Source of the DNA: Methanofollis tationis
Lineage (GTDB): Archaea > Halobacteriota > Methanomicrobia > Methanomicrobiales > Methanofollaceae
Direction of reading: 5' to 3'
NCBI RefSeq assembly: GCF_013377755.1
Contig: NZ_JABXWR010000001.1
Location: 62,001-126,000 of the forward strand
Length of the DNA stretch: 64,000 nt
In this document: piece by piece, positions 1,241 to 10,831 of the stretch
How positions within the stretch are numbered: position 1 is the stretch's first letter
How the letters are laid out: each line of letters opens with the position of its first letter
Translations under genes and position numbers: made by a program
The notes under the pieces: generated by a model
What the model saw: the letters and a program-made list of their open reading frames with translations, nothing else
Database searches by the model: none
What the model was told of the DNA's origin: nothing

Positions 1241-2725
1241 ATGAAATGGGCACTTCTCTCGGTCTGGGACAAGGCCGGCATTGTGGACCTTGCAGCGACC
1301 CTCAGTGAGAACGGCTACCGCATCATCAGCTCGGGAGGGACAGGACGGGCCCTGAAGGAAGCAGGGATCGATTTTGTCGAAGTTTCCGATTATACGGGTT
1401 CGCCCGAGATCATGGACGGCAGGGTGAAGACCCTCCACCCGCGCATCCACGGCGGTCTTCTGGGCCGGCCCGAGATCGACGCTGAGGTGATGAAGGACCT
1501 CGCCATCAACCCGATCGACCTCGTCGTCGTCAACCTCTATCCCTTCGAGAAGATGTCGGGCGAGCACCTCGACCTGGACAGACTCATCGAGTTCATCGAC
1601 ATCGGCGGGCCGGCGATGATCCGGGCCTCGGCGAAGAACTTCAAGTACGTCTCGGTCGTCGTCGACCCTGCCGACTATCCCCTGGTGAAAGCGGCGGTGG
1701 CGAAGGGCGGGTTTACCTACGAGGAACGGCTCGCCCTTGCAAAGAAGGTCTTTGCACGGACCGCCGCGTACGACGCCGCCATCTCGAACTATCTCTCAGG
1801 CCTCGACGGCGGTTTCCCGGAGACCTACTCCTTCCAGTTCAGGAACGGCCGCTCCCTCCGCTACGGCGAGAACCCGCACCAGCAGGCGGCCGTCTATGGC
1901 GAGACCGGGATCGCCGGCCAGACCCCGATGCAGGGCAAGGAGATGTCGTACAACAACTACCTCGACGTGCACGCCGCCGTCTCCCTTCTCAGAGAATTTG
2001 ACGAGCCTGCATCGGTGATCGTCAAGCACAACAACCCCTGCGGCGTCGCCCTCGGCGCCGACGTCCTCGAGGCCTACATCGCCGCCCGCGAGGTCGATCC
2101 CGTCTCGGCCTACGGCTCGATCGTCGCCGTCAACGACGAGGTCGGGAAGGCGTTTGCCGAGGAGATCTGCGGCACCTTCGTCGAGGTGATCGTCGCCCCG
2201 TCGTACAGCCCCGAGGCGATCGAGACGATGAAGACCAAACCAAACATGCGTGTCCTCCTCCTGCCCGCGAAGATCGAGGCCGACGAGGTCAGGAGCATCG
2301 ACGGCGGCATCCTGGTCCAGCGGACCCCCGAACCACAGGAGGAGTGGCAGGTCGTCTCCGAGCGCGAACCGACCGAGAACGAGATCAGGGCGATGCGGTT
2401 TGCGATGAAAGTCTGCAAGCATACGAAGAGCAACGCGATCATCTATGCGACCGACCGTGCGGTGGTCGGCATCGGCGCCGGGCAGATGAACCGGGTCGAC
2501 TCGGCCAGGATCGCCGTTGAAAAGTCCCGCTCCCCGGTCACGGGCACGGTCGTCGCCTCCGACGCCTTCCTGCCCTTCCCCGACACCCTCGAAGTGGCGG
2601 CAGCGGCCGGGGCGACGGCCCTTGTCCAGCCCGGCGGCTCGATCAGGGACGCAGAGGTTATCGAGGCGGCGAACCGTCTGAACGTGGCGATGGTCTTTAC
2701 CGGTGTGCGCTATTTCAGGCACTAA
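1241..2725 (+). CDS. purH: Bifunctional AICAR formyltransferase / IMP cyclohydrolase
   Basis: This enzyme catalyses the last two steps of de novo purine synthesis: AICAR is formylated with 10-formyl-tetrahydrofolate (or an analogue) and cyclised to IMP in the cytoplasm. The 494 residues are near the usual 500-530. The N-terminal methylglyoxal-synthase-like cyclohydrolase domain covers about residues 1-130 (SGGTG at 31-35, VKTLHPRIHGG near 62-72). The transformylase domain follows, with RYGENPHQ at 207-214 and the catalytic KHNNPCGVA at 262-270. GAGQMNRVDSARIA lies near residue 410. Many archaea use separate PurP and PurO; a fused PurH is known in Methanomicrobiales. The ATG at 1241 follows a short leader with no strong ribosome site. 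It is complete and monocistronic. Confidence 0.96.
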   Translation: MKWALLSVWDKAGIVDLAATLSENGYRIISSGGTGRALKEAGIDFVEVSDYTGSPEIMDGRVKTLHPRIHGGLLGRPEIDAEVMKDLAINPIDLVVVNLYPFEKMSGEHLDLDRLIEFIDIGGPAMIRASAKNFKYVSVVVDPADYPLVKAAVAKGGFTYEERLALAKKVFARTAAYDAAISNYLSGLDGGFPETYSFQFRNGRSLRYGENPHQQAAVYGETGIAGQTPMQGKEMSYNNYLDVHAAVSLLREFDEPASVIVKHNNPCGVALGADVLEAYIAAREVDPVSAYGSIVAVNDEVGKAFAEEICGTFVEVIVAPSYSPEAIETMKTKPNMRVLLLPAKIEADEVRSIDGGILVQRTPEPQEEWQVVSEREPTENEIRAMRFAMKVCKHTKSNAIIYATDRAVVGIGAGQMNRVDSARIAVEKSRSPVTGTVVASDAFLPFPDTLEVAAAAGATALVQPGGSIRDAEVIEAANRLNVAMVFTGVRYFRH

Positions 2726-2785
2726 CCCCGGCCTCATCTCCTCTTTTGGGTTAATCCAATCTCATAACTCTCTCTTTTTTCGGTA

Positions 2786-2882
2786 GGTTTATATCTCAAA
2801 TGGTTACATCGAGATATGCATCGCGGAGGTGTTCTTGATGGATTACGGTTCAATGCTTGGAAATGCCTTTGAATATACAAAG
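2786..2882 (+). pseudogene. 5' end of a DUF4013 membrane-protein gene, cut by an IS
   Basis: A TATA-like TTTATAT (2788-2794), a GGAGGTG ribosome site (2824-2830) and an ATG at 2838 open a frame beginning MDYGSMLGNAFEYTKE. This is the start pattern of DUF4013 proteins, membrane proteins of unknown function common in methanogens. After 15 codons the frame enters the terminal repeat of the IS at 2883 and runs into the transposase. The rest of the gene is not downstream. The matching 3' part of a DUF4013 gene is at 35647-36012 on the other strand (see findings). The family call rests on few residues and is strengthened by that second fragment. Confidence 0.65.
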
Positions 2883-4029
2883 GAGGATTTCGAAATACCT
2901 CCCTCCGAAAGTACTATGTATTCTCGGATCGATCCTTTTTCAATGAGCACATTCTTCAATTTTGCAATTCGGGACGAATATGCCAAACTATCTGAACTCG
3001 GGAACACCCTGGGTGAAGTCTCCTCTTTGATCGACTGGGATGCCTTCCGCCCCCTCCTTTCTGATCTGTACACAAATGACGAGGGAAAAGGCGGCCGTCC
3101 GAACTATGATGTTGTCTTCATGATCAAACTTCTCGTTCTTCAGCAGTGGTATGGTCTTTCTGATCCGCAGCTCGAACGTGAAGCATATGATCGCCTTTCT
3201 TTCCGCCACTTTCTCGGGTACCCGACAAAAATCCCTGATAATTCGACGATCTGGCTCTTCCGCGAACGCCTGATCGCAACGGGAAAAGATACGGCCATCT
3301 GGGGGGAGTTGCAACGTCAGATCGACCAGAAAGGATTGACGATCCGGCGAGGCGTGATCCAGGACGCAAGTTTCATCACCTCAGATCCCGGTCATGCGCG
3401 TGCAGATACCCCTCGCGGAGACCAGGCAAAAACGCGGCGAAGCCGCGATGGCACCTGGACGAAGAAGGGTTCGAAATCGTATTTCGGATACAAACTCCAT
3501 ATTCTCCTGGACAAAGATCATCAACTCATCAGACGGATCACAACAACGACCGCTGCTCTCCACGACAGCCAGATCGACCTCTCAGAGAAGGGGGAGACGG
3601 TCTACCGGGACAAGGGATATTTCGGCGTGAAGCCCCGAGCATCCATGGACAAGACCATGCACCGCGCCGTCCGAAATCATCCGCTTTCCCTCAAGGAGAA
3701 ACGCAGAAACAAGGCAATCAGCAGGACGCGATCCCTGGTGGAGCGACCCTTTGCCGTGATCAAAACGGAATTTCGTGCAGGTTATGTCCGGGTGACAACC
3801 TGCGCACGAGCGCATGTCAAATGTCTCTTCTCGTGTCTTTCATTCAACCTGAAACAACTGCTGACAATTGAACGACAGACTGCTTGAGCGGCAGCTATCT
3901 TTCGTGAGAGAAAAAGGAGGGATAATAAAGTGAATTGAGAGGTGTGACGTAAAAATCGCGGGAATTCAACGAGGAATCGGGGGGTGAAGACCGATCTTTT
4001 GAAAAATGAGGGGGTTGATCGAAGTCCTC
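2883..4029 (+). mobile_element. IS5-family insertion sequence, copy A (1147 bp)
   Basis: The ends are set by comparison with copy B (36545-37691), which matches it throughout the stretches I compared and has the same length. Imperfect terminal inverted repeats are visible: GAGGATTTCGAAATACC on the left and, read inward, GAGGACTTCGATCAACC on the right (13 of 17 match). No target duplication is seen at its present flanks (AAAG left, GATT right), as expected if the flanks were exchanged by recombination. It carries one transposase gene and about 140 bp of non-coding 3' sequence. Confidence 0.88.
2916..3887 (+). CDS. IS5-family DDE transposase
   Basis: 323 residues from the first ATG inside the element; the ATG at 2943 (MSTFFNFAIRDEY) aligns with the start of the related transposase at 59239 and is equally plausible. 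The N-terminal DUF772-type domain (GRPNYDVVFMIKLLVLQQWY, LSFRHFLGYP) is followed by a DDE core: IQDASFITSD, the YRDKGYFG segment, and SRTRSLVERPFAVIK near the C-terminus carrying the glutamate. The frame is open upstream of the element only because it joins the truncated DUF4013 start. The protein is identical to that of copy B, so the copies are recent and probably active. Confidence 0.92.
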   Translation: MYSRIDPFSMSTFFNFAIRDEYAKLSELGNTLGEVSSLIDWDAFRPLLSDLYTNDEGKGGRPNYDVVFMIKLLVLQQWYGLSDPQLEREAYDRLSFRHFLGYPTKIPDNSTIWLFRERLIATGKDTAIWGELQRQIDQKGLTIRRGVIQDASFITSDPGHARADTPRGDQAKTRRSRDGTWTKKGSKSYFGYKLHILLDKDHQLIRRITTTTAALHDSQIDLSEKGETVYRDKGYFGVKPRASMDKTMHRAVRNHPLSLKEKRRNKAISRTRSLVERPFAVIKTEFRAGYVRVTTCARAHVKCLFSCLSFNLKQLLTIERQTA

Positions 4030-7064: not shown

Positions 7065-7559
7065 TCAGATAAAACGCTCGAAGCGGTCAGATTTCGCCTT
7101 GCAGACCGGGCATACTTCGGGCGGCCCGTCCCGGGCGCAGAGATACCCGCAGACCCGGCACCGCCAGACCGGGAAGGGGAGAGCGCCGATACCTGTCGCA
7201 GGCGTCTCTTTCTTCTTCGGCCCGCCGGGCGGGCGCCGCTCGGGCACCGCCCCTGCTTTTTTCTTTCCAGCCGCGATCTCCCCGGAGACGTACAGGGCGC
7301 AGTAGCAGGCGCCGTACTCGGTCAGGTCGGGGTCGCGGTAGTCGCAGGGGCAGACGATATCGAGGTCCCGCTCCCTGACCCCGGCGGCAAGGCGGCAGGG
7401 GCAGGAGGGGTAGCCATAACGCCCGGTGTTTGCGAGCAGGCCGGAGACAAGCCCGTTCACGAACGCCCGGTCAGGGTTGAGGTGATACCCCCCGGCCTCC
7501 GCCTCTTTTTTCAGGCGGAGGTACTCCCGCTCGATCTCCGCGTCCGACGGCGGCGGCAT
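7065..7559 (-). CDS. Ferredoxin:thioredoxin reductase catalytic-chain domain fused to rubredoxin-like domain
   Basis: 164 residues. The N-terminal domain has the three paired cysteines of the FTR catalytic chain, CPC (53-55), CPC (70-72) and CYC (85-87), which hold a 4Fe-4S cluster next to a redox-active disulfide; CYC replaces the CHC of plant and cyanobacterial enzymes. A Lys/Pro-rich linker (about 98-122) leads to a rubredoxin-like CRVCGYLC...CPVC (Cys134, 137, 150, 153). Inferred role: passing electrons from ferredoxin or the rubredoxin domain to the glutaredoxin-like protein encoded just upstream. Its ATG overlaps that gene's stop as TGATG, implying translational coupling. Confidence 0.9.
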
Positions 7560-7837
7560 CAGATAAGCGCCTCCCTGATATCCTCCTCCTTGTAGCCGAC
7601 GATCACCCGCCCGTTGATCACGACGGTGGGAAACGACCCCAGGGGGTTGTAGCGCTTCATCATATCGGCGTACACCCGCTCCATCTCCTCCCTCGGGAGC
7701 TGGTCCACAAAAACGTAGTCATAGGCCACGCCAAGGTCGTTGAGAAGTTCTTTGGTCCTGGCGCACCAGCCGCAGGTGCTCAGGGCAAAGAGCATGACCC
7801 GGCCCTTATCGGTTCCGGCGACGTGTATCGGGTCCAT
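7559..7837 (-). CDS. Glutaredoxin/NrdH-like redox protein
   Basis: 92 residues with a thioredoxin fold. The CGWC active site (22-25) follows strand VMLFALST, the cis-proline segment is SFPTVVI, and IVGYKEEDI follows. It is probably the small dithiol carrier reduced by the FTR/rubredoxin protein whose start overlaps its stop by one base. In methanogens similar carriers receive electrons from FTR-like enzymes rather than glutathione (family knowledge; the pairing here is inferred from gene order). The ATG at 7837 is the only sensible start. Confidence 0.9.
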
Positions 7838-7880: not shown

Positions 7881-8537
7881 TCAGGAGATCCCGATGATCG
7901 CGATCAGGTCGCGGATGCTCCCGAGCACATAATCCGGCCTGGACCCGAGGGAAACCGGGGTGTCGCTCTGGTCGCCGTACAGGGCATATGCCGTCCGCAT
8001 CCCGAGGGCCCGGCCCGGTTCGATCTCCCGCCTGATGCTGTCGCCGACCACCATCGCATCTGAAGGTGAGGCCGAGAGGGTGGAAAGGGCGTGAAGAAAC
8101 GACGCCGGGTCGGGTTTTCTCTGCCCCGAGATATCGGGCGAGACGATGCAGGCGAAGAGATCGTCGATACCGGCCTTCCGCAACCGCGAGTGCGCCTGGG
8201 AGGAATGGGCGTCGGTGACGACCGCAAGGGAGAGGTCTGCAGAGGCGAGGGCGTCAAGGGTCTCTCGCACGCCCGGATACGGGCGGATCGCGGCGATCTT
8301 CGCCTTCTCGTAGACCTTGCAGCACGGCATCACGCAGGAGCGGTCGGCGCCGATATCCAGGAGGTACTCGACCACGTTGGACGGGTCCTCGAACCCGACG
8401 CCCGGACGCCTGAAATAGGCGTACAACGCCTCTGCATCCCCGGCGCCCGCGTGCTCCACCACCGCCCGGCACGCCGCCCGCTTGGCCGCAACAAAATCCC
8501 AGAGGGTGTTGTCCATGTCGAAGAGCACGGCCTTCAC
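7881..8537 (-). CDS. HAD-superfamily hydrolase
   Basis: Phosphatase-type HAD protein, 218 residues. Motif I is VLFDMDNTLWDF (nucleophile and acid/base Asp), motif II is LAVVTDAHS, the motif III lysine is in GQRKPDP, and motif IV is MVVGDSIRREIEPG. I place the start at GTG 8537, which overlaps the upstream gene's stop in a GTGA arrangement and has GGGGAT upstream. The ATG at 8570 would overlap that gene by 37 bp. It is last gene of an operon with the PIN-domain and CARF-like genes. The substrate is unknown. Confidence 0.85.
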   Translation of the reverse strand: MKAVLFDMDNTLWDFVAAKRAACRAVVEHAGAGDAEALYAYFRRPGVGFEDPSNVVEYLLDIGADRSCVMPCCKVYEKAKIAAIRPYPGVRETLDALASADLSLAVVTDAHSSQAHSRLRKAGIDDLFACIVSPDISGQRKPDPASFLHALSTLSASPSDAMVVGDSIRREIEPGRALGMRTAYALYGDQSDTPVSLGSRPDYVLGSIRDLIAIIGIS

Positions 8538-9547
8538 CGCTCTATCCCCAGCGCCAGAAGTTTCCTGCATACCTCCACGTCCCTCGTAAACTCTGTATGC
8601 AGGTCTTCATCCATGAAGGTTAGCCTGAAGGCAGAGGAATCGTTCCCTTTGCCCCCGTACTCGCTGAATACCAGGACGGAACCGAGATCGATCACCCCGA
8701 AGATCACGGCGAGATAGGCGATGAGCCTGAAGAAGGCGTCGGCACCGGCGTTTGCAGGGCGTTCATGGTAGGGCGAGCGGAAGAGGAAGTACTCCACCCC
8801 TTCGGCATCGCAGAGGTCGGCCATGGCGGTGTCGGCCGTGAGCAGGACCGGCAGGCTGAAGCGCTCCTCCTCGAACCGCCTGAGTCCACGGACGATCAGC
8901 CCGTCGTTCTCCCGCGAGGTGTGGGCGGCGTCGGCGCCGGTTTCGAGGAGGAGGGCGCGGTCGCGCAGGTCACGGTATTCGGCCATCGCCAGGTAGGCCG
9001 CTTTCCTGGACTTTTTCTTCTTCCGGTTCTCGAACTCGGCGATCACGTCGGCGTGTGTGGGGGCGGACGCCTGGAGGTCGGCGGTGAAGCGGGACGAGTA
9101 TTTATGATTGAGGGCGTATTCGACCTCCTGCCTGACGATGTCAGGGAGGATCGTCTCTTCCGGGGCGATCGCCCCGGTGACCGTGACGAAGCGGTGGTAC
9201 AGGAGGTTGGTGTCGATGCCGAAGCGGACCTCCTTTTTTAACTCCCGGTAGATTCCGAGACGTCCGGCAAACTCCGCCAGGTTTTCGTAGGAGGTCACCC
9301 CGCTGGCGAGCAGGCACTCGTCGTAATCGGTAAACGAAGGCATCTCGGTTGCATGGGTGCCAAAAATTCTCCATCCACGCTCGAAATCTTCTTTTTCGGC
9401 GATGAACTCGATGCGATATCCGGCGCCCTCCGGCCCGACCGAAAAAAGGGCGAGATCATAGAGGGGATACGAGACGGTGAAGCGCCCGGAGAAAAGGTTT
9501 GCCAGGATCGGAAGCTCCTTTTCCTCGATCTCGACGGAGAGGCTCAT
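8534..9547 (-). CDS. PIN-domain protein with novel N-terminal domain
   Basis: 337 residues. I recognise no full-length family. The region 108-250 has the spaced acidic residues of PIN-domain ribonucleases: FGIDTNLLY (Asp112), PDIVRQEVEYALNHKY (Glu141), NDGLIVRGL (Asp215) and LLTADTAMADLC (Asp239). A basic stretch (ENRKKKKSRK, about 173-182) could contact RNA. Residues 1-100 match nothing I know, and the C-terminal 50 residues include a hydrophobic segment (RLIAYLAVIFGVIDLGSVLVF). It overlaps both neighbours by 4 bp, so production is coupled to the upstream CARF-like protein and the downstream HAD enzyme. RNase activity is inferred from the motif pattern only. Confidence 0.6.
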   Translation of the reverse strand: MSLSVEIEEKELPILANLFSGRFTVSYPLYDLALFSVGPEGAGYRIEFIAEKEDFERGWRIFGTHATEMPSFTDYDECLLASGVTSYENLAEFAGRLGIYRELKKEVRFGIDTNLLYHRFVTVTGAIAPEETILPDIVRQEVEYALNHKYSSRFTADLQASAPTHADVIAEFENRKKKKSRKAAYLAMAEYRDLRDRALLLETGADAAHTSRENDGLIVRGLRRFEEERFSLPVLLTADTAMADLCDAEGVEYFLFRSPYHERPANAGADAFFRLIAYLAVIFGVIDLGSVLVFSEYGGKGNDSSAFRLTFMDEDLHTEFTRDVEVCRKLLALGIER

Positions 9548-10029
9548 GCCCGTCCCCCGGCAAGGTCATGGAGGGGCTGGAGGTGGAGGGGGATCATCGG
9601 GTAGGGCCGCGCCATCCCCTCCTCGACCAGGAGACCGAGATAGTAGATATGCTCGGGTGCTATCCCGGCCGATGCAAGGGCGGTGCACGCCGAGACGATC
9701 GCCGCTTTTCTCCCGGGCGTGATGTCGAGGGCGATGACATATCCGTCCCGGGACAGGCGCTCCGCAAGCCTTAATACCGCCTCTCCTGCGGCGGCATAGT
9801 CCCCGCACGGCAGATCGACGGTCGAGATCAGGGGGCTGATCCCGTATCGCTCCGAGATGATCCCGATACCCTCGACGATGCCGGCGGGGCTGGAGCGGCA
9901 CGCCGCATCCATGAGGATAGAGACATCGGTGGGGGCATACACGCCCTCACGGAGGACGGCGTGGTAGGTGTTGAGGAGCGCCCAGCCTGACCTCCCGGCA
10001 AAGGTGATATAGGCCATCCGTTCCGCCAT
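9544..10029 (-). CDS. Rossmann-like protein with CARF-like signature
   Basis: 161 residues, no clear named family. It reads as a Rossmann-type alpha/beta domain: MAYITFAGRSG early, DVSILMDA as a second strand, and VIALDITPGRKAAIVSA (DITPGRKAA at 102-110) followed by a helix. That last element resembles the strand-loop-helix of CARF domains, where a similar T/P-G-x-K loop contacts cyclic oligoadenylate. This is a visual resemblance, not a database match. It heads a tightly overlapping operon with a PIN-type nuclease. A generic nucleotide-binding role is an alternative. Confidence 0.5.
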   Translation of the reverse strand: MAERMAYITFAGRSGWALLNTYHAVLREGVYAPTDVSILMDAACRSSPAGIVEGIGIISERYGISPLISTVDLPCGDYAAAGEAVLRLAERLSRDGYVIALDITPGRKAAIVSACTALASAGIAPEHIYYLGLLVEEGMARPYPMIPLHLQPLHDLAGGRA

Positions 10030-10075: not shown

Positions 10076-10831
10076 TCACGCCACCGGGACGACGAGCGGG
10101 AGACCCCTGTGGGTGACCACCTCGACGGAAACGCCGTAGACCTCGCCGATCACCGCGGGGGTGACGATGCTGCGGTCGCCATGGGCGTAGACCCGCCCGT
10201 CTTTTAAGAAGATGAAGCGGTCGGCGTACCTGAGCGCCTGGTTGAGGTCGTGCATCGTCATCACCGCCGCGATCGTGTGCTGGCGGACGATCTGCACGAT
10301 CGTGGAGAGGATCTCGACCTGGTTTTTGAGGTCCAGGCTGCTGGTCGGTTCGTCGAGCAGGAGGATCTTGGGCTCCTGCACGAGCGCCCGGGCGATCGCC
10401 ACCTTCTGGAGTTCGCCGCCGCTCATCTCGTCGATGTAGGAGAGGCGGAGGTTGTCCATCGAGAGGCGGTGGAAGACGGCGTCGACGATCCTGAGGTCGC
10501 GATCGGTGATGTCCCAGCCGATATGGGGGCGGCGGCCCAGGAGGACGGCGTCGAAGGCGGTCAGCCGCCCGGTCTCGACCCGCTGGGGGACGTAGCCCAC
10601 CCGCCGGGCGATGTCCATCAGGTTCAGGCGGGAGAGGTCTTCGCCGTCGAGGTTGACGACGCCCCCTTTCGGCCTGAGGATCCGGTTGAGGCACTTTAAA
10701 AGCGTCGTCTTCCCGACACCGTTCGGACCCAGGATCGCCACCACCTCGCCGGCGTCGATCGTGAAGGCGATCTCGTTGAGGACGTCGTGGTTCCGGTACA
10801 GGAACGTGAGTTCGTCGACCGCGAGGATCAT
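10076..10831 (-). CDS. ABC transporter ATP-binding protein (iron-complex/cobalamin type)
   Basis: 251-residue ATPase of a FecCDE/BtuCDF-type importer on the cytoplasmic face. Walker A is GPNGVGKTT (35-43), the signature is MSGGELQK, Walker B is ILLLDEPTSSLD and the switch is MTMHDLNQA. It overlaps the permease gene by 4 bp and lies third in a binding protein-permease-ATPase operon. The substrate could be a siderophore, heme or a corrinoid; nothing in the sequence settles this. Confidence 0.95.
   Translation of the reverse strand: MILAVDELTFLYRNHDVLNEIAFTIDAGEVVAILGPNGVGKTTLLKCLNRILRPKGGVVNLDGEDLSRLNLMDIARRVGYVPQRVETGRLTAFDAVLLGRRPHIGWDITDRDLRIVDAVFHRLSMDNLRLSYIDEMSGGELQKVAIARALVQEPKILLLDEPTSSLDLKNQVEILSTIVQIVRQHTIAAVMTMHDLNQALRYADRFIFLKDGRVYAHGDRSIVTPAVIGEVYGVSVEVVTHRGLPLVVPVA

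Follow-up and report, generated by a model that had tools for sequence, protein, structure and literature searches.

The overlapping CARF, PIN and HAD genes

In a 64,000-nucleotide stretch of the genome of the methanogen Methanofollis tationis (assembly GCF_013377755.1, contig NZ_JABXWR010000001.1, positions 62,001 to 126,000; hereinafter the window, with positions counted from its first nucleotide), three consecutive genes on the reverse strand code for a CARF_m1 sensor-domain protein, a PIN-fold protein and a HAD-family protein (Table 1). We read the first two genes as encoding one ligand-gated nuclease in two pieces, whose regular ligand in this organism is probably not a cyclic oligoadenylate of the type III CRISPR kind, and we give this reading a probability of roughly two in three.

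A first-pass annotation of the sequence had reported a 4-bp overlap between the CARF and PIN genes and a further overlap between the PIN and HAD genes, and both are present, the HAD ATG lying 37 nucleotides inside the PIN open reading frame (ORF). The same overlaps recur across the class of the window's genome, with the 4-nucleotide overlapping start in 48 of 60 loci and the 37-nucleotide PIN-HAD overlap in 55/55 loci where both genes are readable; this recurrence argues against chance. A PIN start near the CARF end is absent from one of the 60 loci (L030). The longer overlap suggests that the PIN and HAD genes are probably co-translated.

Fold and conservation of the CARF and PIN proteins

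The first protein matches the PADLOC CARF_m1 profile (PDLC01971) over positions 2-153 of 156 (E value 7e-39, 131.5 bits); it has no Pfam match at E ≤ 1, and NCBIfam offered no meaningful family for either it or the PIN protein. It comprises a single CARF domain, the AAA+ and helix-turn-helix domains of the RtcR type being absent. The DITPGRKAA stretch that had originally drawn attention to a 161-residue ORF is indeed found in this gene: D102-I-T-P-G-R-K108 directly follows core strand 4 (residues 98-102 in the AlphaFold model) and fits [DN]X[ST]XXX[RK], the signature that PMC4012209 gives for CARF domains after that strand. In an alignment of 20 sequences, G12, R13, W16, N20, I103, T104, G106, R107 and K108 occur throughout, S14 and D102 in at least 90% of rows; locus by locus, the ligand-loop residues D102, T104, G106 and K108 are kept nearly everywhere, K108 in all rows but one.

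The AlphaFold model of this protein, built with 20 sequences, has a predicted local distance difference test score (pLDDT) of 86.9. Foldseek searches with it against solved structures returned only CARF proteins among the top 20, led by Cam1 in complex with cyclic tetra-adenylate (cA4; E 6.9e-7, template modelling [TM] scores 0.63/0.66). In VIA-align 2 it aligns with residues 1-139 of SiRe_0806 (9jxx) at Z 13.9 (134 aligned residues, root-mean-square deviation [rmsd] 2.7), tied with several other CARF proteins. A profile of the CARF alignment run against solved structures reached the ring nuclease SSO2081 at E 0.0013 and SiRe_0806 at E 0.17; both stand below matches to TAL repeats (E down to 7e-12), which we took as artefacts, being sums of many sub-threshold repeats of which none is significant singly. 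Single-sequence searches of solved structures with either protein yielded nothing useful. Profile, signature motif and fold support the CARF-like sensor proposed at first pass: the protein is a CARF_m1 sensor domain, for which sequence and model predict nucleotide binding. Structure prediction against the CARF fold had been named beforehand as a check on that proposal, and the fold was found, an outcome that holds at the level of the overall fold.

As for the second protein, PADLOC profiles place it beside the first: the sensor matches CARF_m1--CARF strongly, whereas the separate PIN protein retrieves only fused CARF_PIN profiles, and these weakly, its residues 72-302 matching the PIN half of CARF_m1--CARF_PIN at E 1.6e-9. 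On this fused profile the CARF protein covers positions 3-146 and the PIN protein positions 227-443. With its AlphaFold model (pLDDT 91.5) as query, the five best Foldseek matches are all SiRe_0806 chains (E 1.2e-6 to 3.7e-4), and VIA-align 2 aligns its residues 1-333 with residues 151-418 of SiRe_0806 (Z 16.5, rmsd 4.2, 247 aligned). The rows that follow cover the PIN core alone (e.g., 3i8o at Z 11.9, rmsd 3.2, 122 aligned), and the lower matches include the RNA-processing PIN domains of Rrp44 and SMG6; a profile of the PIN alignment found nothing significant among solved structures. The N-terminal domain of the nuclease, which had been called novel, is probably not so: in the alignment made with the full-length protein, that part too falls within the match to SiRe_0806 151-418.

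The aspartates and glutamate originally picked out as the acids of a PIN RNase (D112, E141, D215, D239) are present, and are invariant in 18 aligned PIN sequences. In five locus sets, which overlap in that some genomes belong to more than one, D112 and E141 are found in 59/59, 57/57, 18/18, 5/5 and 7/7 rows; among the rows that cover the later positions, D215 is kept in 57/57, 56/56, 18/18, 5/5 and 7/7, and D239 in 57/57, 56/56, 17/17, 5/5 and 7/7. Conservation of the acids in homologues was a second check named in advance, and all covered rows keep them, as far away as Thermococcus and Asgard archaea. The second protein has the PIN fold and keeps its four-acid site intact, and nuclease activity is predicted for it.

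The two proteins match consecutive, non-overlapping parts (1-139 and 151-418) of one SiRe_0806 chain, and we therefore regard the pair as a split CARF-PIN effector; this agrees with the split sensor/nuclease pair first suggested for the locus, as does the joint inheritance of the two genes described below. SiRe_0806, a Sulfolobus islandicus CARF-PIN protein (PDB 9jxw; 9jxx with cA4), has the same domain order, but it is one chain where the window has two genes, its sequence identity to them is only ~15-20%, and the window's genome, for its part, lacks a type III system. VapC-type PIN toxins share the PIN fold and acids with the window nuclease and appear among its structural matches at lower Z. 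In VapBC toxin-antitoxin systems a compact PIN toxin stands beside a small DNA-binding antitoxin; the toxins are ~130 residues long against 337 here, and the upstream partner here is a CARF protein instead of a DNA-binding antitoxin, so we rejected this assignment.

The CARF_m1 family and the CARF-PIN architecture are already known, from the PADLOC profiles and from PMC12669027, which lists PIN RNases among type III effectors. In a literature search that did not extend to the Makarova 2020 CARF classification, we met no split, genus-wide, mostly Cas10-free pair whose overlap with a HAD gene is conserved; likewise, no paper naming SiRe_0806 or CARF_m1 was found, and among the matches listed under the genus names CARF came up only in work on Cas10.

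Table 1. Features of the locus and its neighbours in the window, with two related pairs from other genomes (positions within the locus named).
Feature	Position	Strand	Details and evidence
CARF_m1 sensor gene	9544-10029	-	161 aa; PADLOC PDLC01971, AlphaFold model, conserved motif
Putative PIN-domain nuclease gene	8534-9547	-	337 aa; acids D112, E141, D215, D239; PIN core ~98-261
HAD-family phosphatase-like gene	7881-8570	-	229 aa; Pfam HAD_2; conserved catalytic motifs
CARF stop/PIN start overlap	9544-9547	-	ATGA, 4 nt; sequence
ABC transporter ATPase ORF, upstream neighbour	10076-10831		named from its own sequence
Glutaredoxin, downstream neighbour	7559-7837
Ferredoxin-thioredoxin-reductase/rubredoxin-like protein, downstream neighbour	7065-7559
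Sister-clade pair near Cas10 (genome G370)	L141 2854-4379
Sister-clade pair near Cas10 (genome G452)	L142 2859-4404

Inheritance of the pair and of the HAD gene

Across 232 genomes of the class, the CARF gene (by PDLC01971) is present in 59, and the PIN gene (by a profile of the PIN alignment) in the same 59. The pair occurs in 12/12 genomes of the window's genus and in 34/35 of a second group (g11, missing from G068), and is scattered in two families (f2 and f6). The PIN gene lies beside the CARF gene in all 60 class loci that were read, and the HAD gene accompanies them in 55; in four of the five exceptions the PIN match reaches the contig end, and in the fifth (L044) the gene is truly missing from the locus, with that genome's HAD match lying ~6.5 kb away. 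A second contig collection gave 57 loci, including those from Methanofollis, Methanoculleus, Methanosarcinales, Archaeoglobus, Thermococcus, a Thermoplasmatales metagenome-assembled genome and two from Asgard archaea, with a CARF match beside the PIN gene in 56 of them; a phylum search yielded 18 strong loci, 16 with a CARF match. The gap between CARF and PIN widens to ~650 nucleotides in some Archaeoglobi (L122, L124, L129). One locus (L138; G438, contig 76) holds a second CARF-PIN-HAD copy that is interrupted by a stop codon and by changes of frame, and another PIN copy is found elsewhere in that genome (L128).

The genes that flank the operon are shared by the 12 loci from the window's genus, with local inversions, and PIN relatives were absent from viral contigs, PLSDB plasmids and phages (26 viral stretches fit the search pattern, none of them a relative). 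A mobile defence island was weighed in view of these two results and set aside; in this genus the pair is chromosomal and fixed. Compared with three congeners, the ratio of nonsynonymous to synonymous substitution rates (dN/dS) is 0.11-0.20 for PIN, 0.27-0.40 for CARF, the highest of the three operon genes, and 0.19-0.25 for HAD, with 0.07-0.34 for flanking genes; these values indicate that the CARF and PIN genes are under purifying selection. A tree of 43 PIN rows separates the Cas10-near and haloarchaeal pairs from the window's kind at a split with 100/100 support, at which long branches meet. Inside the clade that holds the window's protein, the main groups agree with taxonomy (the genus, a Methanoculleus group, Thermococcales, Methanosarcinales and Archaeoglobi), with weak deep branches.

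Fixation in whole genera, together with the presence of Rrp44 and SMG6 among the PIN matches after SiRe_0806, would also fit a constitutive RNA-processing enzyme that works without a second messenger and whose CARF-like subunit serves only to bind RNA or to keep the dimer together. We consider this quite improbable: the ligand-loop residues are kept in nearly every locus, the gene is absent from 173/232 class genomes, and the elevated dN/dS of the CARF gene is more like that of a sensor than of a core processing component.

The HAD protein matches Pfam HAD_2 (E 6.1e-25, 88.8 bits). HAD hydrolases are characterized by DxD, S/T, K and GD motifs, and D18, D20, T119, K152 and D177 are invariant in 15 HAD sequences. 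Linkage to the pair is seen in Methanomicrobiales, Methanosarcinales (including Methanolobus) and Archaeoglobi (Archaeoglobus), and is old. The 14 Thermococcales loci and the two Asgard loci all lack the gene downstream of the pair, and no HAD gene was detected next to seven pairs that we read as haloarchaeal (L144-L150). The family itself, at E ≤ 1e-60, is found in 200/232 class genomes, most carriers lacking the pair, and on a tree of 37 HAD rows with a weak backbone linked and unlinked versions require at least four label changes.

These observations bear on a possible signalling module of three parts, with the HAD enzyme ending the signal by degrading the ligand or a cleavage product. The invariant 37-nucleotide overlap, the reach of the linkage to Methanolobus and Archaeoglobus and the intact motifs speak for such a module; against it stand the abundance of the family in genomes without the pair, its absence downstream of the pair in the Thermococcales and Asgard loci, the failure to detect it beside the haloarchaeal-type pairs, and the lack of a clean separation of linked from unlinked versions on the tree, and we judge it very unlikely. 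The first-pass annotation had assigned a signal-ending part to the phosphatase; as the HAD family is not specific to the pair, a dedicated role of this kind is without support. Until shown otherwise, we treat the HAD protein as probably a conserved passenger or a co-expressed general phosphatase, the phosphatase role itself being a prediction from its sequence.

Type III CRISPR, the ligand and the proposed switch

No Cas10 was detected in the window's genome with either PF22335, which also gives a match in Escherichia coli and may over-call Cas10, or a second model, PDLC01529, which gives matches in four of the control genomes; a RAMP family search likewise recovered no type III RAMP. The usual source of cyclic oligoadenylates is thus missing, and the genes around the pair in the window code for the ABC transporter, the glutaredoxin, the ferredoxin-thioredoxin reductase and similar proteins, with type III genes not among them. 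In this genome, then, the pair has no tie to type III CRISPR. Co-occurrence with type III CRISPR, proposed as a check at first pass, was examined at the level of the class: Cas10 (PF22335) is found in 21/232 genomes, namely 5/59 with the pair (G056, G059, G088, G092, G154) and 16/173 others (Fisher p = 1.0), and the RAMP family in 5/59 against 18/173 (p = 0.80); these counts, like those for the phylum below, are not corrected for kinship, and show no association of the pair with either. The first-pass annotation saw no CRISPR array in the window, a negative that does not rest on a repeat search of it. The genome does encode a type I-E system (Cas3e, Cas8e, Cas11e, Cas7e, Cas5e) ~1.9 Mb from the window; there (L152; G000:C1:2031000-2047000), some 7 kb of ORFs beside the cas genes resemble a translated repeat array. 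Separately, a Cas1 gene (G000:C1:34997-35800; L151 6968-7903) lies ~27 kb before the window beside a 1,201-residue ORF, with no recognised cas gene among the listed ORFs.

In a search that did not include GGDEF and other cyclases, no alternative nucleotide synthase tied to the pair was found in the window's genome. The single SMODS match (E 6e-4) is below the cut-off and was rejected as a synthase, being the CCA-adding enzyme. A DAC (cyclic di-AMP synthase) domain is present, and nothing links it to the pair; cyclic di-AMP is a possible ligand for which the presence of this domain is the sole support.

In the wider family, the picture is partly one of type III association. Among 294 genomes drawn from the phylum, PIN matches occur in 51 and Cas10 in 54. 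Weaker PIN matches outside the class come from 14 genomes, of which 12 were read (L139-L150; G310 and G386 left out); a CARF match precedes the PIN gene in 11 of these 12 loci, L139 having none within 3,990 bases. The pairs in L140-L143 (families f8 and f9) share with the window pair the CARF-then-PIN order and the four acids, but form the separate PIN clade noted above and have Cas10 close by. Neighbour scans, which covered L140 and L143 but not L141 and L142, showed that the pair in L140 (G456; pair at 1970-3502) is preceded by RAMP genes and followed by a Csm6-HEPN gene, and that L143 has a RAMP gene nearby. The pairs in L144-L150 (families f13, f17, f21 and f27), read as haloarchaeal from their sequences, keep the two-gene order and the four PIN acids, and inspection by eye of the 6 kb read, in which neighbours were not scanned by profile, revealed no type III genes.

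Several points count against our reading of the pair as a ligand-gated nuclease apart from type III CRISPR. Outside the class, 7/16 genomes with strong PIN matches carry Cas10 (G286, G342, G363, G413, G438, G452, G461), and in four genomes (G370, G452, G456, G334) Cas10 lies ~5-6 kb from the pair. Within the window's own PIN clade, the pair of Methanosalsum natronophilum AME2 (G413; L114 2-7008) is within ~6 kb of a Cas10 fragment; this fragment and a CARF4-PDDEXK nuclease gene are upstream of the pair, and repeat-like ORFs follow it. The Methanosalsum relative, the sister clade beside Cas10 and the frequency of Cas10 among strong-PIN genomes make it plausible that some parts of the family have a type III ligand. 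Of the defence or stress system suggested at first pass, the same can be said on both sides: the pair is fixed on the chromosome of a genus, was absent from the viral, plasmid and phage collections and sits in a genome lacking Cas10, yet relatives lie in or near type III loci. A source of cyclic oligoadenylates that is divergent could have been missed. On the structural side, the Pfam PIN_4 match of the PIN protein is below its curated cut-off (16.7 versus 21.9 bits), and the best Foldseek alignment to SiRe_0806 has TM scores of 0.46/0.39 at an rmsd of 11.6, so that domain placement in the PIN protein may differ from that in SiRe_0806.

Pressed further, these points would make the pair an ordinary type III effector that responds to cA4 or a different cyclic oligoadenylate; its Cas10 would have been lost, be transient, or act in trans from mobile elements. 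Membership in CARF_m1, a nearest fold solved with cA4, the type III-adjacent relatives (G456, G370, G452, G334, G413) and the five pair-bearing class genomes with Cas10 are all consistent with it. Nevertheless, we regard it as unlikely for the window: its genome has neither Cas10 nor a RAMP, 54/59 pair-bearing class genomes lack Cas10, the class shows no association, and the pair is held in one neighbourhood throughout the genus under purifying selection. The absence of Cas10 from the window's genome and from those 54 also makes a type III cyclic oligoadenylate an improbable ligand in these methanogens.

A different option is an RNA-damage sensor akin to RtcR, in which fragments of RNA or tRNA ending in 2',3'-cyclic phosphate are bound by the CARF protein, which licenses the PIN protein to trim or destroy damaged RNA. 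The CARF-controlled regulator of the RNA repair operon, RtcR is likewise a CARF sensor outside CRISPR, and RNA fragments with cyclic phosphate ends (PMC7790460) are in its case a precedent for a CRISPR-free CARF domain; the chromosomal, ancient and Cas10-independent nature of the pair in the class would suit such a sensor. However, RtcR is a transcription factor, and in its divergent type of CARF domain the basic residue that follows strand 4 is mostly missing (PMC4012209), whereas it is kept here as K108. On balance we think this option rather unlikely.

Our best reading remains that of a nuclease switch gated by a nucleotide, which in these methanogens has become fixed and is uncoupled from type III CRISPR. 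By analogy with SiRe_0806, two CARF proteins would dimerize, with their pocket close to S14 and to the loop D102-K108, and the PIN proteins would attach where SiRe_0806 has its C-terminal part. Binding of a small nucleotide or oligonucleotide in the pocket might then shift the PIN subunits into an active arrangement, and the activated ribonuclease would cut cellular RNA and slow growth. The ligand is more likely to be an endogenous nucleotide species linked to stress or damage, and the HAD protein, probably co-translated, would act as a general phosphatase.

Nearly all work on CARF sensors has concerned their part in receiving the type III CRISPR alarm; in the present case the pair is fixed in whole methanogen genera that mostly lack Cas10, and it ranges over Methanomicrobiales, Methanosarcinales, Archaeoglobi, Thermococcales and Asgard archaea, plus a sister clade near type III genes. 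It thereby offers a natural comparison between the CRISPR-coupled and uncoupled forms of one enzyme, and makes testable which nucleotide CRISPR-free CARF proteins sense and what makes it. We put forward tentatively, at slightly less than even odds, the broader idea of an ancient archaeal second-messenger or RNA-fragment pathway wholly without CRISPR, in which a split CARF-PIN nuclease, fixed in methanogen genera, would respond to an endogenous nucleotide from an enzyme still to be named. If this is true, the CARF effectors of type III systems may have been recruited from, or released into, housekeeping stress circuits.

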